From: Watersipora subatra
Lineage: Eukaryota > Bryozoa > Gymnolaemata > Cheilostomatida > Watersiporidae
DNA length: 64,000 nt
Direction of reading: 5' to 3'
Assembly (NCBI RefSeq): GCF_963576615.1
Contig: NC_088712.1
Coordinates: 57,863,010-57,927,009 of the forward strand
The notes beneath the pieces were generated by a model, which was not told the origin of the DNA, did not search any database, and saw only the letters and a list, made by a program, of their open reading frames with translations. Shown here in pieces: positions 9,469 through 63,200 of this stretch. A program made the translations under genes and the position numbers. How positions within the stretch are numbered: the first letter of the stretch is position 1; every line of letters begins with the position of its first letter.

Positions 9469-9940
9469 TTAAAGAAATGAAGCTGAACTTTGTGAGGAGT
9501 TGTCACATAAACGTGAAATACGTTCTCAGTCACTAAATATTGTGTAAGAAGGCTATATTGTAAATTCTATAAGATAATAAGAAATTAATCAATAAAACTT
9601 GCTAAAAAGTTTAGCAGTTTTTTGGAGTAGCTTTGATATATTTTGTTATATTTTGCACGTTTCAATTGCCAGTCAGTTGAAAAAACTGAAGACTGTTCAC
9701 TGATATTATTAAACTAAACATGATACTACATGATACTCACACTGGTTTCTCCTGCAGTCTCATCAAATTAAAAACCTACTGTTTTCAGTTTAGCTAAATG
9801 TCAGTTATGAGTTTTAATACTCTTTTACTTCTTTACGAATGCCCCTGCAAATACTGCACCGGCCAGAGAGGTGTTGAACAACGTAAAAAAAGAATTCGTT
9901 GAAACTTGAAGGTTTTATTCAACTTAGAACATCCTAATTT

Positions 9941-10547
9941 CTGTTAATAGAGTGAGTACTGTTAACAGTATGTTAATAGAGTGAGTACTGTTAACAATCT
10001 GTTAATAGAGTGAGTGCTGTAAAAAATCTGTTAATAACGTGAGTACTGCTAACAAACTGTTAATAGAGTGAGTACTGTTAACAATCTGTTAATAGAGTGA
10101 GTACTGTTAACAAACTGTTAATATAGTGAGTGCTGTTAACAAACTGTTAATAGAGTGAGTACGGTTCACAGTCTGTTAATAGAGTGAGTACTGTTAACAA
10201 TCTGTTAATAGAGTGAGTATTGTTAACAGTCTGTTAATAGAGTGAGCACTGCTAGCAGTCTGTTAATAGAGTGAGTACTGTTAACAGTCTGTTAATAGAG
10301 TGAGTACTGTTAACAATCTGTTAATAAAGTGAGTACTGTTAACAAACTGTTAATAGAGTGGGTACTGTTAACAAACTGTTAATAGAGTGAGTGCTGTTAA
10401 CAATCTGTTAATAGAATGAGTACTGTTAACAGTATGTTAATAGAGGGAGTACTGTTAACAGTCTGTTAATAGAGTGAGTACTGTTAACAGTATGTTAATA
10501 GAGTGGGTACTGTTAACAGTCTGTTAATAGAATGAGTACTGTTAACA
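9941..10547. repeat. 29-bp minisatellite, about 21 copies
   Basis: The consensus unit is CTGTTAATAGAGTGAGTACT followed by GTTAACAAT or GTTAACAGT. Each unit carries GTTAAT and the palindrome GTTAAC, which are HNF1-like half-sites. Copies differ by one or two substitutions, mostly in the last three bases. Confidence 0.9.
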
Positions 10548-11150
10548 GAGCCATTGTCAAACTATAGTTCTCACCTAGGCAAAGCGCCTGATTTTACTAC
10601 TCCTGACTTCTTCAGTGAGCAGAAGAAATGTGGGTAGAAATCTCTACTTATGAGTTTTAAAGTAGTAAGAACAAAGGAGAATTGAGAATTTCTTTACAAT
10701 TGAAATAGCAGTTTCTCTGTTATATCACGGTCATAAGATTGATTTCCAATTTAGATGTCTCCTTGTTTTTATGTCGATGATGGCATCCAATTATATTGTG
10801 TTTCACTAATATCGGTTTCTGTCAAAGTAACTATCAACTGTCAACTAACTTATTCTTAGCATGTGGTCTCTCAACTTCTAGCTACCCTTACTGTTGTAAT
10901 TTATTTATACTACTAAGGGCTGGAGATAGCTGTTTTACAGGCATCAATTGTTCTTTATCCATTTTCTCATTATGTATGCTGCCAAGATTAGATGCTAATC
11001 AGATCTTGGTTGTCCAAAAAAATTTCGGAATTTATGTCAACTCAAATATTTGACATGGAAAGTCATTCAGATGAATAAAATGACACTAAGATAGAAAACC
11101 ACATCCTCCCCTAAATGTAACAACATCCTAAATAAAGGATTGGATGAGAA
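10548..11150. other. Intergenic DNA, nothing recognised
   Basis: No coding exon, RNA gene or repeat boundary that I can support. Open frames here are short and lack domain character. Confidence 0.35.
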
Positions 11151-21540: not shown

Positions 21541-21766
21541 TTGTATATACATGTAGATACAAGTATACACAAGTATACGCATGTATATAGATGTATATAC
21601 TAGTATCTACATGTATATACTTTTATATACATGTATATACTTGTATAAACATGTATATGCTAGTATATACAAGTATATACATTATGATACATGTATATAC
21701 TAGTATATACATGTATATTATACTAGTATATACATGTATATACACCTATAACATACATGTAGATAC
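21541..21766. repeat. TACATGTATATACTAGTATA minisatellite
   Basis: Near-tandem TACATGTATATAC and TAGTATATAC blocks fill the interval. They end exactly where the LINE homology begins. Confidence 0.8.
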
Positions 21767-23049
21767 AATTATCGTCCTATTTCTATCTTACCTATTTTTA
21801 GCAAGGTAATGGAAAAACCTGTAAATCAGCAAATTCTTGATTTCTTAGAATCCAACAACCTTCTCAATCAAAATCAATTTGGCTTTAGGCGGGCAAGAGG
21901 TACATCGGATGCAATTTTATTTTTTACTGATCAAATTCTAGAGTCTTTCAATAAAAGAGAATGTGTAATTAGTATTTTCATAGATTTTAGTAAGGCATTT
22001 GACACCATTGATCATAATATATTACTTAACAAGTTGAATAATTATAATTTTAATCCATTGACTATTAATTGGATCCCTATTTATCTGTCGAATAGAACTC
22101 AAGTCACACAAATAAATGATTCATATTCTAATTCCTGCAACATAACATGCGGTGTGCCTCAGGGTTCTGTGTTAGGGCCAACTCTGTTCTCACTATATAT
22201 AAATAATCTTTGTCAATCTCTACAGTATCTAACTCCAATTTTATATGCTGACAACACAAATTTGTTTTTTTCTTCTTCTGACTTGAATGAATCTTACACA
22301 AAAATTAATTTTGATCTTCAAAGACTGAGCCACTGGTGTCAAGTAAATAAACTAACAATTAATTGTGAAAAATCAGCTTACATTGTTTTCAAAAACTACC
22401 AGATCAGTTTTAAATTTGAACACTTATTAACTTTAAATGATAAAAATATTGTTGAAGTAGATGAAATTAAGTTTTTAGGCATTAAAATTGATAAGAAATT
22501 GAGTTGGTCCTCACACACACGCAATTTACTGATTGACTTAAGACCTATTTCAGGACTGTTTTTTCGATTAAGCACTACTGTTCCAAGAAAGATTCTGATA
22601 ATGCTTTACTGCTCTCTTATTCACTCTAAATTATGCTACTCTATAGAATCATGGGGAAATGCTTTTTGGGTTCACCTTGACAAATTAATTAAGTTTCAAA
22701 AGAAAATATTGCGTATTATACATGTATATAAAAAGCCTTTTGGTTACCCAACTTTTGATTTATTTCCCGACTCTAAGATTTTGACTGCTGATAGAATGTA
22801 TCATTACAAATAATTTATTAGAGCACACAAACTGTATCGTTCACAAACGTTTCAAAAACCTTCCCATTATAACACCCGATTTCAATCATCCTCACTTCCC
22901 GCTCCTTTTTATTCTTCATCTGCTGGTCAACGAACATCCAACTTTGTGATGTCTGCACTGTGGAATAAATTGCCATCGTCATTGAAATTAATAAAACCTA
23001 TTGGTGAGTTTAAAATGGAAATAAGGCTCCACTTTAGCTCGGCTTGGTG
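21767..23049 (+). pseudogene. 5'-truncated LINE reverse transcriptase (CR1/jockey-like), inactive
   Basis: The frame is open from NYRPISILPIFSKVMEK at 21,767. It shows the RT blocks FGFRR..GTSDA, FIDFSKAFDTIDH (catalytic Asp), GVPQGSVLGPTLF, LYADNTNLF and FLGIKIDKKLSW, then a C-terminal ALWNKLPSSL...FK block. The normal YADD box reads YADN here, so a metal-binding Asp is lost. An in-frame TAA at 22,811-22,813 splits the protein before the last ~78 residues, which continue in the same frame to TGA at about 23,049. The 5' half (endonuclease) is absent. A probable LINE 3' tail runs to about 23,150. Confidence 0.85.
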
Positions 23050-43277: not shown

Positions 43278-43283
43278 ACCAAC
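43278..43283. repeat. Left target-site duplication ACCAAC
   Basis: Identical to 54,698-54,703. Each copy directly abuts the outer base of a terminal inverted repeat. Confidence 0.85.
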
Positions 43284-43775
43284 AGTAGTATATAGAGAGC
43301 AGATCTACACATAAAAGTGACGGATCCAGCGGGGGGATAGGAAAAGGGGGGGTTGTGAATTAAATTGGCTAGGGGTGTAGATTGAATCGTGTGGAGTTGA
43401 ATGAGATGTTGGGGTTTGGGGGGAAATTGTGGTGTAGAGTAGGGGGTTGAATTCGAGGGGTTACGGATCCGCTCCTGGCGTAATCGGCGGATTATCTGTG
43501 GATGAGTCATCGGATTAGCGGGGGATGAGTCATCCGATTGAACGCGGATTATCGCGGGATTAGTCGGGGGAATCGTCGCGGATTAGTCGGGCGAATCGTC
43601 GCCGATTATCGGTGGAATAGTGGGGGTGAATATCTGGGACATCGAGGGCTGGATGGTTTTCCAAAGTGGATCTCGCGGATTATCGAGGAGAGCGAGAGAT
43701 TACCTAGCGGATGAGTGAGGGGGTTAATATCTGGGACACCGAGGGGTTGATTTTCCGGAGATTGTTATATATTTG
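43284..43775 (+). repeat. Left terminal inverted repeat, ~492 bp
   Basis: It matches the reverse complement of 54,207-54,697 with only scattered substitutions (for example around 43,664) and one-base length changes in G runs. It is G-rich on this strand (several runs of 4-7 G) in an otherwise AT-rich region. It contains about six GGATTA motifs and two ATGAGTCAT motifs. Host similarity stops sharply at both ends. Confidence 0.9.
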
Positions 43776-43838
43776 GTTGAATGAGAGATAAGTTTTTATT
43801 ATAAAATATAAACTATAAATGTTACAAAAAATTCAAAA

Positions 43839-44552
43839 TCATTCTGTCATTCGTTTTAAAAAGGAAAGTTTTGGAATACATCTTTCATCAATTTCTGTGT
43901 CACATCGAAGAACTAAAATAAGAGTTGATTTTCCCAAAGAATTGAGAAACTGAACAGGAAGTAACAAATCTAATCCTTCATTATTTCCAATATTATCATA
44001 TATGAAGGTATCTTTAGGTGTAGTAGAATTTGAAATAGGTTGAAGATTACAGATAAAGTCAATATCTTGAAAATTCGATCCTGGAGGACATTGCAACATT
44101 GAAAGAGTAGAGTTATATCCACATAATTCTCCTCTGTAGAATAATTTGAAATCAATTAGAATATCGATTGTGGAATTTTGAACTGAATATTCACATTCAG
44201 AATATGTTAGAACTTGCTCCGATGAAGCTGACACTATAGGATTAAGGTATAGGTTTTTTCCATCTGTTTCATCTTCATTTAGTAGTTCTTTACACGCAAA
44301 TCTGTGATTGCCTGGTAATGGATAACCACAATGAATGTAGTCCAATGGAAATATTCTTCCGCATGTTTCATTATTCTTGTGATATAAAGTAGTTTCTTCG
44401 AATGGAAGTAGTAATGAAACTTCAAATTCATTGAGTGTTCTGCTTAAGCAGTTATTCGCATCGGTAACATATTGAATTCTTTGATTTCCATTTATTATTC
44501 CCGTAAAGCGTAAAATGAGAAATATTATAATGTGCAAATTCATTATAGTCAT
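43839..44552 (-). CDS. Element-encoded secreted or ectodomain-like protein, unknown function (237 aa)
   Basis: It begins with a hydrophobic signal-peptide-like stretch (NLHIIIFLILRFTGIING, residues 4-21). The rest is about 215 residues with roughly ten Cys and several N-glycosylation sequons (NET, NST). No transmembrane segment is clear near the C-terminus. A TATA-like CTATATATATT lies upstream on the minus strand near 44,630. It is the last gene before the left terminal repeat. I do not recognise a family. A secreted protein on a Polinton-type element might be a virion-surface relic or a host-directed factor; that is speculation. Confidence 0.65.
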   Translation of the reverse strand: MTIMNLHIIIFLILRFTGIINGNQRIQYVTDANNCLSRTLNEFEVSLLLPFEETTLYHKNNETCGRIFPLDYIHCGYPLPGNHRFACKELLNEDETDGKNLYLNPIVSASSEQVLTYSECEYSVQNSTIDILIDFKLFYRGELCGYNSTLSMLQCPPGSNFQDIDFICNLQPISNSTTPKDTFIYDNIGNNEGLDLLLPVQFLNSLGKSTLILVLRCDTEIDERCIPKLSFLKRMTE

Positions 44553-44764
44553 AGTGTCTTTTTAAAATACTACTCTCTTGACTGAAGTAGGCAAAGAAAA
44601 TGCATAAAAAAGTATGTCAATATAATATATATAGTTCATTCTTCAAAATTATCTTGAAATACTATACAAAAAAAAGTTATTCAATTCTATTTGATGAGTC
44701 AATCCTTCTTGGATATAAAGTGATTAAATATAAAGAATTATGCAAAGTCTAACTGTGATGATTA

Positions 44765-45265
44765 TCAATTCTTCCCATTGATATGTAGGAGTTCACTGAA
44801 GTAACGATTTGTAGCATGTTGATCATTGGCTTCTCCTCTCAAATATGGATAAAGTCTTGTTTCGGTTAATATTATGTTTGAAGGTGTGTTCCAATCAAGT
44901 GAGGATAATAATGATAGTTGGACTTTGTCACTCCTTGGTCCGATTTGAGCAGATTCCAAACACGTTCCAATATCGAGTTCGGCAAAAGTCTCATGAAGTT
45001 CTTGTCGAGTCAATCCTTCATTTCCATATCGTATTTGCATTATTCTAATACAATATTGACATCCTCGAGCTCCCTCGAAGCATCCACACCGACTTTCTAA
45101 ATATGTTACGAAACGTTTATAGATATAGAATCCGATAACATAGTAAAAAGTTTCTTCAGTAACTCTTCTGATGAATTTTTTTGTGTTTTTCTTTACAACC
45201 ACTCTTGATAATTGTCCATCCTTAAGATGAGCTGGAATAAACTCCTCTAGAAATATAACCGACAT
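44765..45265 (-). CDS. Small Cys-rich protein, paralogue of the upstream ORF (166 aa)
   Basis: It shares with the neighbouring 195-aa ORF an N-terminal (F/I)(V/I)P block, then I(R)..(L/V)TEE..YY..G....K.., and a cluster C.C....(R)C..C (about residues 59-71 here) that could bind zinc. The two genes are adjacent, same strand, with ~120 bp between, so they arose by tandem duplication. The TEE..YY..G....K plus C..C arrangement faintly recalls the C-terminal region of some transposases, but I would not assign function on that. Starts at the first ATG. Confidence 0.65.
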   Translation of the reverse strand: MSVIFLEEFIPAHLKDGQLSRVVVKKNTKKFIRRVTEETFYYVIGFYIYKRFVTYLESRCGCFEGARGCQYCIRIMQIRYGNEGLTRQELHETFAELDIGTCLESAQIGPRSDKVQLSLLSSLDWNTPSNIILTETRLYPYLRGEANDQHATNRYFSELLHINGKN

Positions 45266-45387
45266 TGTTTCTGTTTTCTTCGATTTTTTTTTTTTTTGGT
45301 TCCTTCACCAACAGAGCTAAATTGAAGAATGGTGGAGAAATCTAGAGGAGTAGACTTAATATCATTCCGAATCTTTTTTTTTTATTT

Positions 45388-45975
45388 TCATCCAACAGAT
45401 TTTTCATCTATAATTACATCATCAATTTCATGCTCGATTTCCTCTTCCACGCTTTCTCCGATTAATGGAAATTGTGCTATATGAATGAGTCTTCTGAAGA
45501 GCAGTTGTTTCGTTTCATCACGTTGAGTAGGATGAGTCATGTAGTGCCGAATTCTATTCCAAAACACGGTTTCAAAAATCGTTTCTTCCATCGTTTTAAA
45601 ATCGGTCGCGATAAATCTGTTAATCCATTCTAAATCAACCTCTTTTCCAATTTTACCTTCTCGAATGGTAGCTTCAAGATCAACCCATTCAAAGGTCATC
45701 TTCAAATCTGAGGGTGTTATCGATATTTCTTTTACACATAATGTTGATTCCAAACATTCCCTGCATTCCAACGCACTGCAGACACAGTTGGACTTTAATC
45801 TTTTCAATGACACAACTTTTCTAAAAGCAGCTGTTCCTAGAATGTAGTATAAACATTCCTCGGTAAGATGCGTACGAATTTGTTCATTTTTGTCAAGATG
45901 AACCAAGATGTTATCTGGGATTATTTCTGCAACCTCGAATGGAACAAAATCTTTAATCAGAATGTTTTGAGTCAT
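45388..45975 (-). CDS. Small Cys-rich protein, paralogue of the downstream ORF (195 aa)
   Basis: Carries LTEECLYYILG at about residues 37-47 and CVC..LECREC at 64-73, aligning with the 166-aa neighbour. The C-terminal tail is acidic (ESVEEEIEHEIDD). On the minus strand a TATA-like ATATAAATTC lies about 60 nt upstream of the ATG. It lies just downstream of the polymerase gene, in the same direction. No family recognised. Confidence 0.65.
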   Translation of the reverse strand: MTQNILIKDFVPFEVAEIIPDNILVHLDKNEQIRTHLTEECLYYILGTAAFRKVVSLKRLKSNCVCSALECRECLESTLCVKEISITPSDLKMTFEWVDLEATIREGKIGKEVDLEWINRFIATDFKTMEETIFETVFWNRIRHYMTHPTQRDETKQLLFRRLIHIAQFPLIGESVEEEIEHEIDDVIIDEKSVG

Positions 45976-46174
45976 GTTACTATGAGAAAGTCTACATTCG
46001 AAATGATTTTACATTGGATAGTATATTGAATTTATATGAGCTTAGTTATATATTATTGATATTGTATATACGAAAAGAAGAGCCAATGAAGAAAATAAAA
46101 TTTTATAGTAATAATACATCGAGGAGCAAAACTCTACTATCATATATACTTAACAACAAATTCACTTCTAAAAA

Positions 46175-49100
46175 TTATGCTAAAATATATTCTGTGCTCA
46201 CTCCATCGTTACATACTCTTCTTTTTGAATAAAAATATGTTAATCCAGTTCTAAGTTGAGTGTATGAGAACACTCTATTGTCTTTTTTTACAGAACCTTT
46301 GTTTACCCCTTCCTTAGGAGATCTTGAATGTAATACTTTTAAAAAAGTGTCTTTTGTAAAACTATTCGTAGTTTTACTTAATCCTTTACTGCTATGCTTT
46401 GTAGAATGAGTTTCATCATTCCAGCAAAAGTAAGTCTTAGAATTTAAGGCTACTATTCCATGTCCTGAAAATTCTACTTTGAATAAACCAGGAGTCCTTA
46501 TATCATATTGATATACTTCTTTGCAACAATTTTGTAATTCCCACAACTTTGTAGGAACAGATTTACAGAGTTGGAAATCATCCGCGTGTCGATCGCAATA
46601 CATCCTAGGAAACCATTTTCCATATTCTTTGTAGTATATATCAGCGATCTCTTTTCTAACGATATTATCCATAGGTGCTGAAAGAGCCATGTAGGCACTA
46701 TCTGTATCCATCGCCACATACTGGAAGTCCTTTCTGTCGAAGTATCTAAAATAAAAAATTTCAATCCTTAATTCTTGTTATCTTAGTATTATAATACTCC
46801 CATTTCAAAAATTATCATTCAAATGTTTACCATTATACATATTTTTTCTAAAAGATACAAATGAGATTACTTACCTATCCATGAAGTCATAGTAGAACTC
46901 CAACATCCGAAGTTTAGCCAGTTGTAATATGGAGAATCCGATATGTACAGGTATATCCATTTTCATCTGAATAAATATATATACAGTCCTATTAGATTCC
47001 TTTACATATATTAGCTCAAGTAAATTTTTCATTATGATTCAATTATATCAATAAGATAATAAATATATACTACTAACCAAAGGCTTGTGTTGAGTCAACT
47101 CATAGAAGCTATCAACGATTTCCTCCAAAGATTCAAATCTGTGTGATCGTATTCTCAAGGATGCTTCATAATCTCCTTGAATATACTTGACATTTCGATG
47201 TTTTAATTTCTCAGTGATTGTTTTCCCGTACGATGAATTTCCAATGAGTTTATTGGTTGTGGCTATCAACTCTTGGTCAGGATCTTTGTCACCAGCTCTT
47301 CTAGCATTTGAGACAGATTCTCCAAATGACTGGAAAACTCTTCTAGGGGTGTATTCTATGACTTGATATATTTTGGTTATAATCAATCCATGATTAAGAT
47401 ACCATTTTGCTAAAGTGGTGAGTAGTAAAATTTTTTCTCCAAACATACTCCCCACCAAAGTTCGTTGTTCTTGAGCTAGCATTCCTTCCTTTTCAGCAAA
47501 TTCTTTCATACTTTCACTAAGATGATTTCTATTCAAAGATGTATTCTTGAAAATGGGGCTCATTTCTGAAAACTTTTCGTATAAGTTTTCAGGAACAGAT
47601 ATATCGCATTCAATGAATCCATATATCTCCCCTTTTATAATCTGCTGAATAATCTCATCCTCGGTGGCAAAGGAATTGGAAGGATAAAACTCTTCGTTGA
47701 AGATACTAATAAAGTTCTTAATCTCGGTGTTATCCTCAATCATCTTGTTCCATTCACACTCCCAGATTCTTACTAAACGATATCCAAGTTCTTTAACATA
47801 TTCTTCCTTCTTTATCGTTTCCTCCAGAACTTCACTCATGGGTCGATTCTTATATGGATGTATACTTATTCCTTTGGTCTTGTTACAGTTATGTCCATGC
47901 CAGAAACATCCATGAAATTGAAACACTGTATTCGATTCTTCACAATATCCATCAACAGGAAGATTATGTTGTCCAATTCTAAATTCTTTATCGTTGTTTT
48001 CATGTAAGATTTGAATATTGTCCTTCCAAGTCAAAAATTGTAACCATCCATGAGCAGCCATGCTATTTTTTCGAGAATGAGTGTATGCAAATCCATTTTC
48101 GAATCGTCTTATTCTAGGGTTTCCAGTAGGCATTTCTTGCATCATACTCCACAAATATAATGCATTTGCATCAACTCCTAGAATAAGTTCACAAAGTTTG
48201 GATTCCTTTCCAAACTTTCTTTCTCGAATCAGTGTTTTCTTCGACTCATGAAGTCTGTGAAAAACAATGCTAGGTCCACCTATGATATTGTCCTTGATAG
48301 TAAAGTAAATATCTTTATCACTTTCCTTGATCAGACAGACAGGTTGACAAGCTTTGAAATGATGTGATGAGATTGTCTGATGATGAGAACTCATAGGATG
48401 AGGAGGCGAATCTGAAAGTTTCAACATCCATTTTACTGCCAATCCAGGAAGTGAAATGGCATCTTTCAACATATCGATTCCCATGGTTCTGTAAACTTCC
48501 TTTTGTTTTTCTACAGCTTCAACAAATGGTACTACATCGAGATTGTTGTACCATACTAGAAAATCTTTTAACGTTTTCATCTTCTCTTGTTTCCAAATGT
48601 TTAAACAGATTTCATAATCAGCATCCGAAATATGTTCATCTCTCAAAGAACTGTAAAAGCATTCTTTAGCTGGTAGAAACGGTTGTTTCAACTTCTCAAG
48701 ATCATCCATATATTCATAAGGATAGAATCCTTTTTGTTGAGAGCATTTGAAAGCTTTGAGATACTTTGCATAGGAAAATCCTGGAGCAATGAAGTTGGAA
48801 ATATCCAAGAATTTGAATCTTCTTGATTGAATACAGCTCATCTTGTTTGTTCTTTTCACTACAAAATCAAAATCTTCGTCTTCTGTGTCTTGAAGACATC
48901 GAAGTAGAGGTCCTTTCATCACATTCAGATCGTAGTTTTGTGAATTAAATCCTAGAATCGGAATACATGAGATGAATTTGTCGAAACGATTAAATAAATG
49001 ACAAAATTCCTCTCTTGAATGGTATACTCGAGGATTGGAAAATTTGCAGGATTTAAATCTTTCTTCAACTTTTCCTTGCTTTTCAGCTTTTGCCTTCATC

Positions 49101-51252
49101 AACTGTCTAATGTAGTAAAGTTTTTTTTCAAGGATATCCCGGGCTTCATCAGCAATTTGGGAAATATACTGAACAAAAGAAGATATACAAGAATCAGTAT
49201 CTCCCTCACTTACAAAACACTTTGGATCCTTAAATCCGGGTACATTTGAACAAACTGATATACTCATCAATTCGTGTCTCGATGTGAATGTAACCGAATT
49301 GGAATTTGGTGGAAGGTCGGATTTTGGAAGATAACACTCGATATCATAGGTGATTAAAAAGGGATAATAAGTATCTTCCTCAGCCACGGATATTCCTATC
49401 TCTCGTTTCAGTTGTTCGAAAATTGTAGGTGTTGCCTTAAACTTTCCTCCTTCGAAGATGAAGTTTGTTACTACTTCTTGACTACATTTATGTCTATTGA
49501 AATTTCCTCTTTTTGTAAAGCTCACTTCACAGGAAGGACAACTAAACCCTTTAGTATAAGCATTAACATCCTTGATGAAACTGAAATGAGAGTTCTGCAA
49601 ATCGAGGAAGAGTTCCTTTCCCTCTTTTTGGGACGATGTCCAGATGACTGTTGAGGTTTCATCAGCATTCAGAGAAAATATGGTTATACGGAGGTCAAAA
49701 CATTTCTCAAGAGAAATTAAGTCTCCTAACTCAATTCCAGGAAAATTATTCATCAGATCTTTGTAGGATGAGGAAGAAGAAATGTGTTTTGAGTACTTTT
49801 GAAATAGCACCTTCACAAGTTGCTGTTTTGGTCTTTGTCTGGTGCAACTACATCGGTTTGAACACTTACACATTACCTTCAATGCTAAACATCTGAAGAA
49901 ACAGAGATTGTCTGTGTAAGGAGTGCAGCTACGAGGAATGTTATGCATAGTGATTACATGTCGATTGTTAAGAATGTGAGTCGGAAGATCTGAAGCCAAT
50001 CCTATTTGCCCCATTCCAATCAATTTATAGAAATAGAATGAAATATTGGTAATTACATTCAATTTCCAAGCTGTATTCGGGCGTTCTCGAATCGCTATAG
50101 CAGCAAGATCTTGTCTTGTCAATTCTTCAAAGAAATTCTGTAGTTCCTGTCTTGTTGTAATCAGTTTTGCTTTTTTGAAAATTGTAGCATTATTCGATGA
50201 AGCATGAAAATATCTTAATTCTCCTGAAGTTTTATGTTCAAGAATGCATCCCACACTACAATTTAACTTAGCTCTTGTTTGTAACCCATTCCAAGTTGTC
50301 AACATCTCGTTCCATATTCTTTCCGAATGGTTTGGAGTTGGAAGTTCTGCTTGAGGAATATTTCCATTCCATAAATTTACGTTTAACGTTTCAACAACTC
50401 TTCCTCGTCGTCTTTTTGTTTTCATAGCATTCCAATATCTTCTTATTAACTCATCCCATTCCTCATCATCATTAACAGGAATGATATCCTGATTATCTTG
50501 TTCTCTTTCATTTTCGATAGGAACGATGGGCTCGACTCTATCATTAATACCAACTAAATTGTCATCATCAGCGTCCACTTCATTTTCGTTTCTTTCGATT
50601 TGATTTGTAGGTTGATCAGATAAATATCTATTTTCTTCGATTTCATTTGTATTTTCTTCTTCTGATACATCTGATTCATCGGATTCATCATCAGCAAGAT
50701 TTCGAGTAATAGGAGTTACTGTTATCTTAGATCGACTAAGATCTCCTCTTCCAATTTGAGTTGAAGCAGAACGAAATGAAGAATGATGAGAAACAATCTT
50801 TACTTTTTCGAAAATGAAAGGGGGATTGGAAACTTGTATAATAATCGAGGCATCATCATCATCATCATATTCGTGATATTGTTCCGAAGAATCATTAGTT
50901 GATGTTGTAAACGATTCTGAACTTTCATTCGATTGGAGATGAATGTGTTTAACATGTCTTTTGAGGTTTGATTTTTTGTTAAATGAAGTCGAACATTCTA
51001 AGCAGATATATTTATTAGCTGAAACGGATGATACACTTCTTTCCCTACTTCTGCTTCTTTCTCTATTATCAATTGAAGTGGAAGGAGCAGAATTTTCCGA
51101 TGAAATTAAATTATGCTCTCGTGAAAGCTTGAACATCTTTGAGGAAGATTTCCAGCTGCCAAGAATTAAAAATCTCATTTTACTATTCTCTCTACATTTA
51201 TTCATTCATTAAAAATTTTTTCCACCAATTATTGTAAATCAACTCACCTCAT
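46175..51252 (-). CDS. polB: Protein-primed family B DNA polymerase with spliceosomal introns
   Basis: Residue numbers count from the ATG at 51,205. An N-terminal C2H2 finger (66-88) and an acidic linker precede an OTU-like block (DNLCFFRCLA about 432, His about 540) and a second finger (556-574). The exonuclease follows: YDIECYL about 620, FNSQNYDLN about 753, YNNLDVVPF about 886. Polymerase motifs are VDANALYLWSMMQEMP about 1011, an FHGCFWHGHNC...WECEW insert resembling Vsr-type nucleases, NSSYGKT about 1323, then MDTDSAYM and SKTY. Two introns must be removed, 47,077-46,967 and 46,874-46,746; the join restores KMDIPVHIGFSIL and RYFDRKDFQYV in frame, giving about 1,596 aa. A third intron, 51,247-51,156, would remove the ATG at 51,205, with the start at 51,252 (MS|WKSSSKMF). 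Replicates the element from its ends. Confidence 0.88.
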
Positions 51253-51321
51253 CAGATTTGCTCCAGTCTCCTTCTGAATGGGAAGATGCCGGATACATTT
51301 CCTTGATGTATTCAAATTTCG

Positions 51322-52090
51322 GAGATATATAATCCAGTGAAACAGAGATAATCCAAAGTTCTGAGAGAAGATTATACATAGATATCCAAATTGTAGAATT
51401 AATCCAAACTTTTGTGAGATATATAATCCAGTTAGTTCGGAGAAATATAATCCAGTGAAACAGAGATAATCCAAAATTCTGAGAGAAGATTATACATAGA
51501 TATCCAAATTGTAGAATTAATCCAAACTTTTGTGCGATATATAATCCAGTTAATTCGGAGAAATATAATCCAAAGTTCTGAGAGAAGATTATACGTAGAT
51601 ATCCAAATTGTAGAATTAATCCAAACTTTTGTGAGATATATAATCCAGTTAGTTCGGAGAAATATAATCCAGTGAAACAGAGATAATCCAAAGTTCTGAG
51701 AGAAGATTATACATAGATATCCAAATTGTAGAATTAATCCAAACTTTTGTGAGATATATAATCCAGTTAGTTCGGAGAAATATAATCCAGTGAAACAGAG
51801 ATAATCCAAAGTTCTGAGAGAAGATTATACATAGATATCCAAATTGTAGAATTAATCCAAACTTTTGTGAGATATATAATCCAGTTAGTTCGGAGAAATA
51901 TAATCCAAAGTTCTGAGAGAAGATTATACGTAGATATCCAAATTGTAGAATTAATCCAAACTTTTGTGAGATATATAATCCAGTTAGTTCGGAGAAATAT
52001 AATCCAAAGTTCTGAGAGAAGATTATACGTAGATATCCAAATTGTAGAATTAATCCAAACTTTTGTGAGATATATAATCCAGTTAGGTAT
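51322..52090. repeat. 118/99-bp tandem array rich in TAATCC
   Basis: The landmark TTCTGAGAGAAGATTATAC occurs at 51,359, 51,477, 51,576, 51,694, 51,812, 51,911 and 52,010. Unit lengths are therefore 118, 99, 118, 118, 99 and 99 bp. The long unit differs by one 19-bp block (CCAGTGAAACAGAGATAAT). Each long unit has four TAATCC motifs, each short one three, about 25 in all. The array lies between the polymerase start and a minus-strand TATA box, so it would be in the polymerase 5' leader. The overlapping open frames here follow from the repeat. Confidence 0.9.
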
Positions 52091-52143
52091 AGAAATAGTT
52101 CGAAAAAAACTCTCGATAATGGTGAGTCCATCAAACTTGGCTG

Positions 52144-52151
52144 TATTTATA
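52144..52151 (-). promoter_or_regulatory. TATA box for the leftward (polymerase) transcript
   Basis: On the minus strand GTATAAATAC is a canonical TATA box. A start about 30 nt further would produce a long leader through the 118/99-bp array into the polymerase gene. The assignment is inferred from position. Confidence 0.5.
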
Positions 52152-52220
52152 CTAGTCAAGTTCAAGGAGGTGGAACCTGCACAAAAGCTATAAATCACTT
52201 CTAATCCAACTTGTCTCACT

Positions 52221-52605
52221 CAACTTTCGCGAAATTGGATTTCGCGAAAGTGAATTTCGCGAAATTGGATTTCGCGAAATTACACATTATATATATTATA
52301 TAGTCAACTTTCGCGAAATTGAATTTCGCGAAAAGTGAATTTCGCGAAATTGGATTTCGCGAAATTACACATTATATATATTATATAGTCAACTTTCGCG
52401 AAATTGAATTTCGCGAAAAGTGAATTTCGCGAAATTGGATTTCGCGAAATTACACATTATATATATTATATAGTCAACTTTCGCGAAATTGAATTTCGCG
52501 AAAAGTGAATTTCGCGAAATTGGATTTCGCGAAATTACACATTATATATATTATATAGTCAACTTTCGCGAAATTGAATCTCGCGATTTTCAATTTCGCG
52601 AAAAG
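52221..52605. repeat. 85-bp tandem array of TTTCGCGAAA palindromes
   Basis: CAACTTTCGCG begins at 52,221, 52,305, 52,390, 52,475 and 52,560, giving an 84/85-bp period. Each unit has four copies of the palindrome TTTCGCGAAA (or one-base variants) followed by ACACATTATATATATTATAT. About 17 palindromes occur in total, and the last partial unit is diverged. The array sits between the divergent promoters, where an iteron-type control or replication site would be expected. Confidence 0.92.
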
Positions 52606-52673
52606 TCTTCTGATATTATGGATGATGCAACTAAATTTATCAAAACTCATTAATCATTTGATGAGGAGAATTG

Positions 52674-52680
52674 TATATAA
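52674..52680 (+). promoter_or_regulatory. TATA box of the rightward gene
   Basis: TATATAA at 52,674-52,680 is followed about 34 nt later by an initiator-like TCAGT (52,706-52,710) and by the ATG at 52,750. Confidence 0.55.
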
Positions 52681-52749
52681 CCAGCAGAATTTTACTAAAA
52701 CGATATCAGTTCTTCATTCAAACTCAGAGAATTAACACACTACACAACT

Positions 52750-53667
52750 ATGGAGGATAATACTCAATCTGGAGTGATAAAACCTGGATCGAATAGTTCA
52801 GTGAAGATGACGAAAAAGAGAATTTCACCTATAACTCTTTCTAACACGACTCCTTCAACGAAGAAGAAGAAATCCAACCAAATCGAAACGAATTTGGAGC
52901 AAAGGGTAAAAGATGTGGCAGACAAGTTAAGAACATTAAGTAAGGCTACTTTAATGGAAGCAAAATCATTGCAGAGAATGTCAGATCTTTCAATAGGATT
53001 GATTATGGAGGTGACAAAAACGGAAGAAGCTCATTCGATCCATGGAGCGTGCTGTATCATTCACTTCAACTATGTGGAAAATGGGATTAGTAAATCTACT
53101 GCTGTATTTGCTCCACAACGATTTCTGGATGGATCGCTGTCTTATCCAAGTATTATGGTATATCTTGGATTAAAACCTAAGGCTAATGGACAGGGAAGTT
53201 ACCATGACTTAAGAAGAGTAACAGAAGGAACCTCAACTCCCTCAGACATGAAACGTACTCTAGCCAATCTGAGATCGAAGAAACTTGAAAAACTTATACA
53301 ACATTTCGAGATTCGTCATCTCAAGGAGTTCAAAGCACCATCTATTTTCCACTATCACAATGTTGGAGCAAGTGAATACAAAGATGGTGAAGGCAATGTG
53401 GATGTGGTACCAACTGTAGCATTTTCAACCAAAGTTGATGGAGAGGAAGTTCAAGGAACTTTAACGATGCCTTCGAGATGTGCCCTTTCGTTGAAAGAAA
53501 ATTATCCGGGTATCATTATATACAAGGGGCTAGTAACATCTCACAATACTCGCGAATACTACGATGTAGTAGTCATGGGACATGAAGAAGCAAGCAGATT
53601 TTACGAGAGTTCGGTACAATGCAAAAAGGATCCTGCTATCTCACTTATTTCCGATGACGATGAGTGA
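52750..53667 (+). CDS. Element-encoded basic protein, possible nucleic-acid-binding protein (305 aa)
   Basis: The N-terminal ~45 residues are Lys/Ser/Thr-rich with KKRIS and STKKKKS, likely nuclear localisation. Two beta-rich halves follow, each with a similar ending: residues ~83-145 (FNYVENG..STAVFAPQRFLDG) and ~220-277 (FSTKVDGEEVQGTLTMPSR...YYDVVVMG). The F.P.RF pattern after a beta hairpin recalls small OB-fold-like proteins found with protein-primed polymerases, so an ssDNA-binding role is plausible but unproven. The C-terminus ISLISDDDE looks like a SUMO-interacting motif. The only rightward gene of the element; AATAAA lies at 53,991-53,996. Confidence 0.75.
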   Translation: MEDNTQSGVIKPGSNSSVKMTKKRISPITLSNTTPSTKKKKSNQIETNLEQRVKDVADKLRTLSKATLMEAKSLQRMSDLSIGLIMEVTKTEEAHSIHGACCIIHFNYVENGISKSTAVFAPQRFLDGSLSYPSIMVYLGLKPKANGQGSYHDLRRVTEGTSTPSDMKRTLANLRSKKLEKLIQHFEIRHLKEFKAPSIFHYHNVGASEYKDGEGNVDVVPTVAFSTKVDGEEVQGTLTMPSRCALSLKENYPGIIIYKGLVTSHNTREYYDVVVMGHEEASRFYESSVQCKKDPAISLISDDDE

Positions 53668-53689
53668 TTGATGAACAACTCGATACAAA

Positions 53690-53879
53690 CTTCGTTTTAA
53701 AGAATGTACATGATCATTTTCTTATATATATTCAATGTTTCATTTATACTATATTATCTTTATTCTGACTTATCTACTTGTACACTTCGTTTTAAAGAAT
53801 GTACATGAACATTTTCTTATATATATTCAATGTTTCATTTATACTATATTATCTTTATTGTGACTTATCTACTTGTACA
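53690..53879. repeat. 95-bp unit repeated twice in tandem
   Basis: CTTCGTTTTAAAGAATGTAC begins at 53,690 and 53,785. The two units differ at only two or so positions. It lies directly 3' of the 305-aa gene. Confidence 0.85.
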
Positions 53880-54109
53880 TTTCATATATTTCAAGTTAAA
53901 CATAAACTATTTTATTTTTATTGAAACGAAATGATGATGGAAATAATGAATAATACATATAAATATATCTTTTAAAGTGAATAATTTTGTAATAAAACTG
54001 ATCTTTCATTCAACATATATAAAAAAACCGAAAATAAAAATCCTTAAAATTCTTAACCATTCAAGAGCTTCAACATTACAAAAACATCAAATCTTCAAAA
54101 AAAATAACT

Positions 54110-54225
54110 TTGTACATAAACACTTTCTCATATATATTCAACGTTCTCAAATATATAACATTCTCCACTTTGCACATAAACACTTTCTCATATATATTCC
54201 ATGTTTCAAATATATAACAATCTCC
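54110..54225. repeat. ~60-bp direct duplication at inner edge of right terminal repeat
   Basis: 'acataaacactttctcatat' occurs at about 54,114 and 54,174, each followed by an 'aaatatataaca' block. The second copy runs into the right terminal inverted repeat. Confidence 0.65.
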
Positions 54226-54697
54226 GGAAGATCAACCCCTCGGTGTCCCAGATATTAACCCCCTCACTCATCCGCTAGGTAATCTCTCGCTCTCCTCGAT
54301 AATCCGCGAGATCCACTCCGGAAAACCATCCAGCCCTCGATGTCCCAGATATTCACCCCCACTATTCCACCGATAATCGGCGACGATTCGCCCGACTAAT
54401 CCGCGACGATTCTCCAGACTAATCCCGCGATAATCCGCGTTCAATCGGATGACTCATCCCCCGCTAATCCGATGACTCATCCACAGATAATCCGCCGATT
54501 ACGCCAGGAGCGGATCCGTAACCCCTCGAATTCAACCCCCTACTCTACACCACAATTTCCCCCCAAACCCCAACATCTCATTCAACTCCACACGATTCAA
54601 TCTACACCCCTAGCCAATTTAATTCACAACCCCCCTTTTTCTATCCCCCCGCTGGATCCGTCACTTTTATGTGTAGATCTGCTCTCTATATACTACT
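54207..54697 (-). repeat. Right terminal inverted repeat, ~491 bp
   Basis: Reverse complement of 43,284-43,775. Proline-rich frames beginning MTHPQIIRR occur in both copies simply because the repeats match; I do not call them genes. Confidence 0.9.
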
Positions 54698-54703
54698 ACC
54701 AAC
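54698..54703. repeat. Right target-site duplication ACCAAC
   Basis: Identical to 43,278-43,283, marking the right edge of the inserted element. Confidence 0.85.
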
Positions 54704-60200: not shown

Positions 60201-63200
60201 CAGACATATTTGCTGTTTGAGAGATTACCCACACACACTGTTACTTTTGAATTTTTGGTGAAAAAGTTTAACTATAATAAAAGTTGTGTCTGCTCATCTG
60301 TCTCAAGCCATGTTAAGAGCATTAGGAAAAAAGATTCCACTGCACGGCAGTCGAACGGGGATGTTCAGATTTCCAGTTAACCAAACTACTACCTGCACCC
60401 CTCAACCACATTGAGGCAGCTAAGAATAATTTTACACATGCTTATGACTTACTTAATAATTGTGGGGATACTTGTGCACATACTTATGACACATGGCGGT
60501 CTCTTACAGAGCATGGGACTGCCAGTATACTTGTATTTGTAAAATGAGCTGGCAACAAAAACGCAAAGCGTGCTGAGTGTAGAAATACAAATGATTTGAG
60601 TAAAGTAATATGCAGCTGCTAGTTTACCAGCTTAAACACTAAAATATGATTTGAAAAGATTCAGTTTCTTAATGCATTGAAATCTACTTTTAATAGGTAT
60701 TCGATGATATTTTGAGTTAGCAGAAAACTTTGAGTTGAAATAATGTCTTTTTGATTACTTTAGATAAAAGGCTGACATATAAGTTAATATATCATAATAG
60801 TGATATGTTAGCTGATTTATTGTATTCGGCTTTTATGATTAAAAAACAAACAGAGAGCTTTGTTGATAATGTTCAATGCAGGGTAGACTTAGATTTGTGA
60901 TGTCAGAATTTAGTTATAAGTTCAAATGAATATTTTTCTTACTTTACTGGCAATAATTTTATCTCATTATTAGATTAAAAATACTGAATGGTTTAATTCG
61001 TTCATATATCACTGATATGTTTCAATTTTGAAGTACCGGATATCTACAAGGTGATGACTTTATTTTGTACTTACCAAAAGATGCACTCAACAATTGTATC
61101 ACTAAATATTTTAATCTTTTGTCAAAAGTGACAAGATGTATACCTGAACATACATGTAGTTTCAAGTATTCCTTGCGTAAATTATTGTTGTTGCGTTCAT
61201 GATGCTACACGGCAATACCATTCTATTTATTTTTTTGGTGGCACCATGTGTAAAATTTTTTTTGCTATAAATGATTATGAACTTCTCAATAAAAGCATAC
61301 AGTATATATATTTTAAACAGAAATAGTTTCCAAACTATGCCATGTAAGAATAAAAAGGACAAAGAATAAATTGGCAATAAAATAAAATGAATGGTTTTAT
61401 TTGATGCTATTTATTTGTTGTGTTCTTGGTGTCAACTTGTCTGTTAACTGTATGTTACTTTTCTAGAATATACAAAAGGCACTAAAACAACCTTGAATGT
61501 ATCTAAGATTGTTGGGTAAACAGAAAAAAGTTACAATCTTCTCTATCGATAATCTACCCATGATCTTACATGTATATTGCTATCTGCTTCTGGTAATGAC
61601 TCTCTAACCAAACAAATACCTTTAGACTGGTGAGGCCACTCAGCATTATCAACTTGGCAGACAAAGCCGTGGCTGATAGAGACTATTATGCAACAGCTCA
61701 TGACATCCTTGAGTGGGAGAGAAGATACGGCATGATACCTAGAGGAGGAATCGTATGTTCAGAATATTATAATATCAGTAGGGAGTTGTCTTCTTTGTTT
61801 AACAAAAGTTTGTATAAACCGTTTTTATTCAAATTAAAAAAAATTGATATTAGTATGCTTTTCCACTTCAATTTTTTTAAAACTGGACATTCTTGAATAA
61901 TTGAGAGTTGCGTTATCTTTGATGATGAGTTAAATTCCAATTGGAAGGATGCCCAATCAGTCAGGACTTGCTCTTTTTGAGAGAAGATTTAAATGAATAG
62001 TGTAGTGCTGCACGATATCTTTGCATGTACATTCAATTATTTGGTCTCAAAATATATCGAATATCAAAAAGTATCGAACATTGGAGTTGTCTTCTTTCGA
62101 TATATAGTGTTAGGCTTTAACATGAACGATATGAGAGTACATTGATTAATATCGTTTAAAACAGGAGTTGTCCCCTCGTTACAATAGAGAGAATAGACAA
62201 CTCCATTTTTGCAAAATAAAATCGGCCGATATTTCGATAAAATATCGGCTTTGATATTCATATCGACTTGAAAAGTGACCAAATATAAAATCATCCACTG
62301 AAATATATCGTCATATCGAATTATATCGTGTTATCGTGCAGCACTAGAATAGTGATTTCAAGTCATGATGCTGCTACTATTTTCACAAAAATACTTTTTG
62401 AAAGATCAGTAATGCATCTTAACTTGCAGGTACATAATATTTAAGCCACTTTGCATGTTACAGGTAATCTTTAACTATGAGTGGGCAAAACACTGGAATA
62501 GCCATGATGATATCTTTGGCTCAAACAGCTTTGATCCATCAACATTCCACTTTCCAGGCGTAGGGCTGTGTGCAGCAAGAGTTTTAGCAATAAGAGGAGT
62601 CTATGGTAATAATTGACAGTAATGAGTCACTTGATATTAATGAGTCACTTGATAGTAATGAGTCACTTGACAGTAATGAGTCACTTGATAGTAATGAGTC
62701 ACTTGATAGTAGTGAGTCACTTGATAGTAATGAGTCACTTGATAGTAATGAGTCACTTGATAGTAATGAGTCACTTGATAGTAATGAGTCACTTGATAGT
62801 AGTGAATCACTTGATAGTAATGAGTCACTTGATAGTAGTGAGTCACTTGATAGTAATGAGTCACTTGATATTAATGAGTCACTTGATAGTAATGGGTCAC
62901 TTGATAGTAGTGAGTCACTTGATAGTAATAAGTCACTTGATAGTAATGAGTCACTTGATAGTAATGAGTCACTTGATAGTAATAAGTCCCTTGATAGTAA
63001 TGAGTCACTTGATAGTAATGAGTCACTTGATAGTAGTGAGTCACTTGATAGTAATAAGTCACTTGATAGTAATGAGTCACTTGATAGTAATGAGTCACTT
63101 GATAGTAATGAGTCACTTGATAGTAATGAGTCTCTTTACAGTAATGAGTGGCTTGATCAGCAAAAAACCTTTTTGGGGAAGTAGACGGAAATTTGCAATT

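Follow-up and report, generated by a model that had tools for sequence, protein, structure and literature searches.

A Maverick/Polinton derivative in the bryozoan Watersipora subatra carries its own polymerase gene and probably borrows its integrase

A stretch of 64,000 nucleotides from the bryozoan Watersipora subatra (NC_088712.1, positions 57,863,010 to 57,927,009; hereafter the window) contains an element related to the Mavericks, or Polintons, at window positions 43284 to 54697. The element is 11,414 bp long and has the five genes that an initial annotation of the window had described, a family B DNA polymerase gene (PolB) and four orphans. Four of these genes run leftward, namely open reading frames (ORFs) of 237, 166 and 195 amino acids (aa) and PolB, and an ORF of 305 aa runs rightward. 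We searched the W. subatra assembly (784 Mb, 239 contigs) for related sequences and compared the element with 20 copies taken from the list of matches to the 195-aa gene; the comparison covers the left ~9.3 kb of each copy and the right end only for the copy labelled L036. Because the 20 copies were picked by the 195-aa gene, their uniformity is uninformative about elements of other classes. The element and its borders comprise the following features.

43278 to 43283, no strand: left copy of the target-site duplication ACCAAC, from the sequence and a joined-flank query
43284 to 43775, plus strand: left terminal inverted repeat, which starts AGTAGT and includes a 23-bp minisatellite
43839 to 44552, minus strand: 237-aa ORF with a start that by eye resembles a signal peptide; open in 14 of 20 copies
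44765 to 45265, minus strand: 166-aa cysteine-containing ORF, a paralog of the 195-aa ORF; open in 19 of 20 copies
45388 to 45975, minus strand: 195-aa cysteine-containing ORF; open in 20 of 20 copies
46175 to 46745, minus strand: PolB exon 3, with polymerase motif C (DTD) and including the stop
46746 to 46874, minus strand: PolB intron 2, GT-AG, 129 nt; both splice sites intact in 19 of 20 copies
46875 to 46966, minus strand: PolB exon 2
46967 to 47077, minus strand: PolB intron 1, GT-AG, 111 nt; both splice sites intact in 20 of 20 copies
47078 to 51205, minus strand: PolB exon 1, with a zinc finger, vOTU-like Cys/His motifs, Exo I–III, polymerase motif A, a VSR-like insertion and motif B
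51318 to 52086, no strand: tandem array of 118/99-bp units
52220 to 52586, no strand: tandem array of an 85-bp unit rich in TTTCGCGAAA
52750 to 53667, plus strand: 305-aa ORF
53689 to 53883, no strand: tandem repeat of a 95-bp unit
54207 to 54697, minus strand: right terminal inverted repeat, which ends ACTACT
54698 to 54703, no strand: right copy of the target-site duplication ACCAAC, from the sequence and a joined-flank query

The ends of the element are those of a Maverick. Its terminal inverted repeats, which the initial annotation had put at about 490 bp with 5'-AG ends, are ~491 bp long and 98.8% identical end to end (they were detected as arms of 444 and 68 nt), and the outermost bases, AGTAGT//ACTACT, are the Maverick end motif. 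In vertebrate Mavericks (AGT)2//(ACT)2 is the commonest end motif and is accompanied by 6-bp duplications; the inverted repeats of these elements measure 46–1,447 bp and their intact lengths range from 12.7 to 24.6 kb (PMC8097293; this and the other papers cited here by PMC number are cited from excerpts). The perfect 6-bp duplication ACCAAC reported earlier is likewise present. A query made of the two joined flanks matched the genome at this locus only, as two segments with precisely these six bases in common, and thus there is no paralogous empty site. Further copies had been expected to carry similar duplications, and perfect ones, ATTGCT and ATTATA, flank the other two elements for which both flanks were examined, making three of three; the right end of the element flanked by ATTATA is ACGACT and departs from the motif at one base.

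PolB comprises ~1,596 codons over three exons by coordinate arithmetic. The initial annotation had identified a protein-primed polymerase, and homology and motifs bear this out; the gene consists of three exons and two GT-AG introns rather than of one ORF plus a fragment. The first reading frame stops at 47048 and coding resumes in other frames, with GT-AG sites at the breaks. The 20 copies preserve these sites almost without exception, yet their introns vary in length (109–115 nt for intron 1 and 129–132 nt for intron 2) by amounts not divisible by three. The breaks therefore reflect splicing and not decay, and we rejected the idea that PolB is a broken frame. We take the catalytic motifs to be Exo I–III and motifs A–C, and they are conserved, as are the VSR-like positions, with several columns invariant across all 19 aligned PolBs. 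The VSR-like domain of exon 1 matches Vsr endonuclease chains in a profile search (E 1.7e-5). We considered this domain as a novelty and rejected the idea, since a VSR-like insertion in PolB is already known as a mark of group I Mavericks (PMC10328495); a role in PolB for the vOTU-like Cys/His motifs is given in PMC11071308. Relatives of PolB number 1,421 at E≤0.001 among the 7,948 candidates scored, and the named ones among the 120 matches listed belong to lancelets, sea cucumbers, starfish, a sea urchin and a sea anemone. Named animal proteins are ~39–45% identical to PolB, and one unnamed protein shows 60% identity across 99% of the region used as query. No relative of PolB, of a PolB alignment, or of the 195-aa or 305-aa protein was found among viral contigs.

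As the initial annotation had stated, the element bears no signature of an integrase, capsid, ATPase or protease, and Pfam scans of its genes and of nine further frames detected none. An RVE integrase, a defining trait of Mavericks, was matched by none of the genes or longer frames that were scanned. The longest stretch outside the genes (51206 to 52749) consists mostly of tandem arrays, and by our reading no unassigned stretch outside arrays is long enough for an integrase. None of the 15 genome places that match the double jelly-roll capsid family PF21738 above the cut-off lies in the window, nor does either of the two that match the adenain-like protease family PF00770, although the latter is a weak test because the host's own capsid loci also lack a PF00770 match. 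According to the excerpts, intact Mavericks carry integrase and virion genes (PMC8097293, PMC10328495) and an rve integrase is a universal feature of Mavericks plus one polinton-like virus (PMC10328495). Since integrase and capsid were sought and not found, the element is Maverick-derived and not a Maverick in full.

The integrase might instead be present in a form that our scans did not recognise, either as one of the four orphan proteins or as the VSR-like domain of PolB, and the orphans do have few homologues: three for the 305-aa protein among 5.8 billion proteins (two carry the name W. subatra) and two for the cysteine-containing proteins. The identical VSR-like columns also speak for such a function. 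We nevertheless consider this reading quite unlikely, because the VSR-like insertion is a known group I trait found where an rve integrase is called universal (PMC10328495). AlphaFold2 models of the 305-aa and 195-aa proteins (mean pLDDT 37 and 45) gave no usable fold, and none of the ORFs in the element was identified as an integrase. The two cysteine-containing ORFs, which had been paired in the initial annotation, are distant paralogs of one another (22–23% identity, E 2e-6 to 2e-5). The genome searches with the 195-aa and 305-aa genes scored the top-ranking candidates only (150 of 274 and 129 of 300, respectively), and the copy numbers are therefore lower bounds: at least 129 near-full matches to the 195-aa gene, 121 of 129 without an internal stop, and at least 129 matches to the 305-aa gene, 123 of 129 without one.

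The element belongs to an amplified family and is no lone deleted copy, in agreement with the earlier view of it as a lineage. We searched both strands with the 22-nt terminal sequence, allowing one mismatch, and found 364 forward and 376 reverse places, 740 in all, against 0 for the reversed sequence used as a control. Paired ends were analysed for 100 of the 740 places, all perfect matches on contigs C1–C4; 96 of these form 48 convergent pairs and 4 are unpaired. Half of the paired elements (24 of 48) hold both the 195-aa and the 305-aa gene, 23 of them at 10,981–11,578 bp and one at 13,709 bp, and the remaining 24 divide into 2 with the 195-aa gene only, 6 with the 98-aa exon of another interior class described below and 16 with none of the three. 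This tally excludes 16 of the 150 195-aa rows (5 second pieces and 11 paralog rows) and 32 of the 150 rows for the 98-aa exon (the 30 lowest-scoring, 0 of which lie inside the 48 paired elements, and 2 on small contigs). The 20 compared copies are collinear with the window element from the same first base, with 96.5–99.5% identity in the longest matched pieces; one lacks ~2.9 kb in the region of PolB exon 1, and others have smaller deletions. All 20 start AGTAGT, but in the ten more divergent of them the end differs by one base (AGTAGTATGTAG), and such elements are therefore absent from the list of perfect-match ends.

We estimated the ratio of nonsynonymous to synonymous substitution rates (dN/dS) for the window copy against ten copies of its own subfamily and ten copies of two more divergent subfamilies. 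Against the more divergent copies, dN/dS is 0.54–0.80 in 10 of 10 comparisons for PolB exon 1 and 0.17–0.81 for the 237-aa gene (≤0.32 in 9 of 10). These values hint that PolB and the 237-aa gene are kept by selection, evidence that is weak given the low counts and the common ancestry of the copies; for the cysteine-containing genes there is no such evidence.

Some elements with the same ends have a different interior. Among the 48 paired elements, 22, of 4.3–13.5 kb, lack a scored 195-aa match, and we sampled such interiors on other contigs: L003 and L004, from one element (G000:C10:43781413-43791860) that is also the source of L049, L006 on contig C10 and L007 on C8. The four ends of this other class are 98.2–100% identical (mean 99.3%) to 15 ends of elements with the window-type interior (class 1), all of the window's subfamily, and the class-1 ends are 98.0–100% identical among themselves (mean 99.2%). 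The 6-bp duplications occur with both classes, the perfect ATTGCT belonging to the L003/L004 element, the sole other-class element with both flanks examined. In L003 class-1 DNA continues inward as far as the 3' end of the 237-aa gene and in L004 and L006 as far as the stretch adjoining the 305-aa gene, and L007 keeps a 36-codon piece of the 305-aa gene; further in, the DNA is different. In L003, short exon-like stretches with GT/AG borders by eye run in frame into the final 18 codons of the 237-aa gene. A 98-aa frame resembling a last exon (L049:20-316) was scored at 150 genome places, some of them inverted pairs ~2 kb apart, and this exon lies ~1.4 kb upstream of four of the 305-aa matches. 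By eye we thought it might be a Polinton protease, an idea that we rejected because no database search bore it out. Tandem arrays of the TTTCGCGAAA type, read in translated frames, occur in both interior classes (window 52220 to 52586 and L049:864-1256).

These interiors bear on the possibility that other copies hold the integrase and capsid genes missing here, as the initial annotation had recognised. No such genes were seen in the left ~9.3 kb of the 20 copies, and of the differing interiors, sampled in three elements, only the smaller part was read. They also raise the possibility of a divided Maverick, in which elements with the same ends and moved by the same enzyme would share the work, one kind carrying the replicase and orphan genes and others complementary genes for integration, and perhaps the virion, together with captured host genes, much as bidnaviruses divide their genome; mobility would then require that the kinds coexist. 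The 22 elements without a scored 195-aa match, the near-identical ends, the duplication ATTGCT and the protease-like look of the 98-aa exon speak for such a system. However, that exon has no support from Pfam, PHROG or the PDB, and its inverted pairs are as expected of a different repeat. The two PF00770 places and all 15 PF21738 places lie outside the sampled C10 element, and those on C1–C4 lie outside the 48 pairs, which were tested for capsid places (0 of 5 inside). Other-class elements moreover keep class-1 DNA inward of their ends, as derivatives would: L003 retains in-frame remnants of the 237-aa gene, and L007 part of the 305-aa gene. We regard a divided Maverick as distinctly improbable. 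As for host genes, the W. subatra annotation includes two proteins that resemble fusions involving the 305-aa protein: P0123 has the first ~63 residues of that protein followed by a RING/B-box (TRIM-like) protein, and P0122 has a different start followed by its last ~120 residues. Neither P0122 nor P0123 could be placed between such ends, and host-gene capture is a possible lead.

Full-size Polintons coexist with the element in the same genome. At 6 of the 15 capsid places a PolB lies 8,515–9,339 bp upstream on the same strand; the search with the PolB family PF03175 gave 35 matches, all 66 candidates being scored. Separately, 29 of these 35 rows are more than 25 kb from any PF21738 match, many in frames of ~1,300 aa, which suggests PolB lineages of other kinds, in which virion genes, if present, went unrecognised.

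We favor, as rather better than an even chance, a model in which the element is a Maverick/Polinton derivative reduced to the replication half, autonomous for its replicase and dependent for integration. We base this on the ends and duplication, which equal those of vertebrate Mavericks, the relatives of PolB, its conserved motifs and splice sites, the dN/dS values of PolB and the 237-aa gene against the more divergent copies, the 20 collinear copies, the ends of both interior classes, equally similar and both with 6-bp duplications, and the capsid loci with a PolB. Since there are hundreds of end places and no recognisable insertion genes, the insertion enzyme is probably borrowed from elsewhere. 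The initial annotation had suggested an integrase acting in trans; the coexistence of full-size Polintons makes this plausible, though the integrase of those Polintons was not located.

Several findings weigh against this model. A genome search with the integrase family PF00665, in which the best 150 of 5,324 candidates were scored, pointed to no integrase of the full-size Polintons, many of its matches lying in very long frames that resemble retrotransposon polyproteins and make the search uninformative. None of the 100 listed ends is near the five capsid loci on C1–C4, and the other-class interior, read only in part, could hold an integrase. Exon 1 matched neither a solved polymerase nor PF03175, although PF03175 is listed for many of its relatives. 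The cysteine-containing genes lack clear purifying selection (dN/dS against the more divergent copies 0.32–2.46 for the 166-aa gene and 0.62–1.55 for the 195-aa gene). Finally, PolB exon 1 is fully open in the window and in only 6 of the 20 copies, and its dN/dS within the subfamily of the window copy (ten comparisons) lies nearer 1 (0.60–1.46). Together with the ~2.9-kb loss from exon 1 in one copy, these observations speak for a plain internal-deletion derivative that is amplified passively by a full-size partner and no longer needs its PolB. We consider that explanation unlikely, because splice sites persist while intron lengths drift, because the PolB dN/dS is below 1 in every comparison between subfamilies and because no same-ended partner larger than 13.7 kb exists among the 48 paired elements.

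How a replication-half Maverick would move can be outlined. We envision a scenario in which the element produces a protein-primed DNA polymerase of its own, as its gene, motifs and spliced structure suggest, and, by analogy with the Maverick family, replicates in linear form starting at the inverted repeats. An RVE integrase acting in trans, most simply that of the full-size Polintons in this genome, would join the AGTAGT ends to host DNA and leave 6-bp duplications. The same machinery could also move the same-ended relatives with a different interior, and the four orphan genes, open in most copies, probably serve replication or interaction with the host.

The element resembles group I Mavericks/Polintons in its (AGT)2//(ACT)2 ends, inverted-repeat size, 6-bp duplication and PolB with a VSR-like insertion (PMC8097293, PMC10328495). 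At 11.4 kb it falls below the length range of intact vertebrate Mavericks, and its PolB is spliced whereas the ORFs of the latter are intronless (PMC8097293). Unlike group I Mavericks, it lacks any recognisable gene for an integrase, capsid, ATPase or protease. Linear plasmids and transpovirons combine a PolB-type replicase with inverted ends and have no capsid or integrase; the element differs from them in its nuclear chromosomal location, Maverick-type duplications and spliceosomal introns. Bidnaviridae have a small linear genome with inverted ends; the element, for which no capsid gene was found, is by contrast a chromosomal repeat family. Pack-type elements are non-autonomous DNA transposons that carry host sequence, and the same-ended elements with another interior and the host proteins seemingly fused to the 305-aa protein recall them, but the ends and duplication here are Maverick-type. 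Relations among the PolB domains of linear plasmids and transpovirons, and the Polinton-related PolB of Bidnaviridae, are described in PMC11071308. Searches of open-licence literature, Repbase and subscription papers aside, turned up no integrase-less, non-autonomous or divided Polinton and none from Watersipora or another bryozoan, except as an inferred ancestor (PMC10328495).

Elsewhere in the window, positions 21752 to 22813 hold a 353-aa open frame that by eye resembles a non-LTR reverse transcriptase, and long minisatellites with 29-bp and 18-bp units lie at 9940 to 10547 and 62613 to 63157.

A replicase-only family with its own gene set that has spread to hundreds of same-ended places would separate replication from integration. 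Such a family makes it possible to test which proteins suffice for a Maverick to spread and whether a Maverick integrase can act in trans on ends other than its own.

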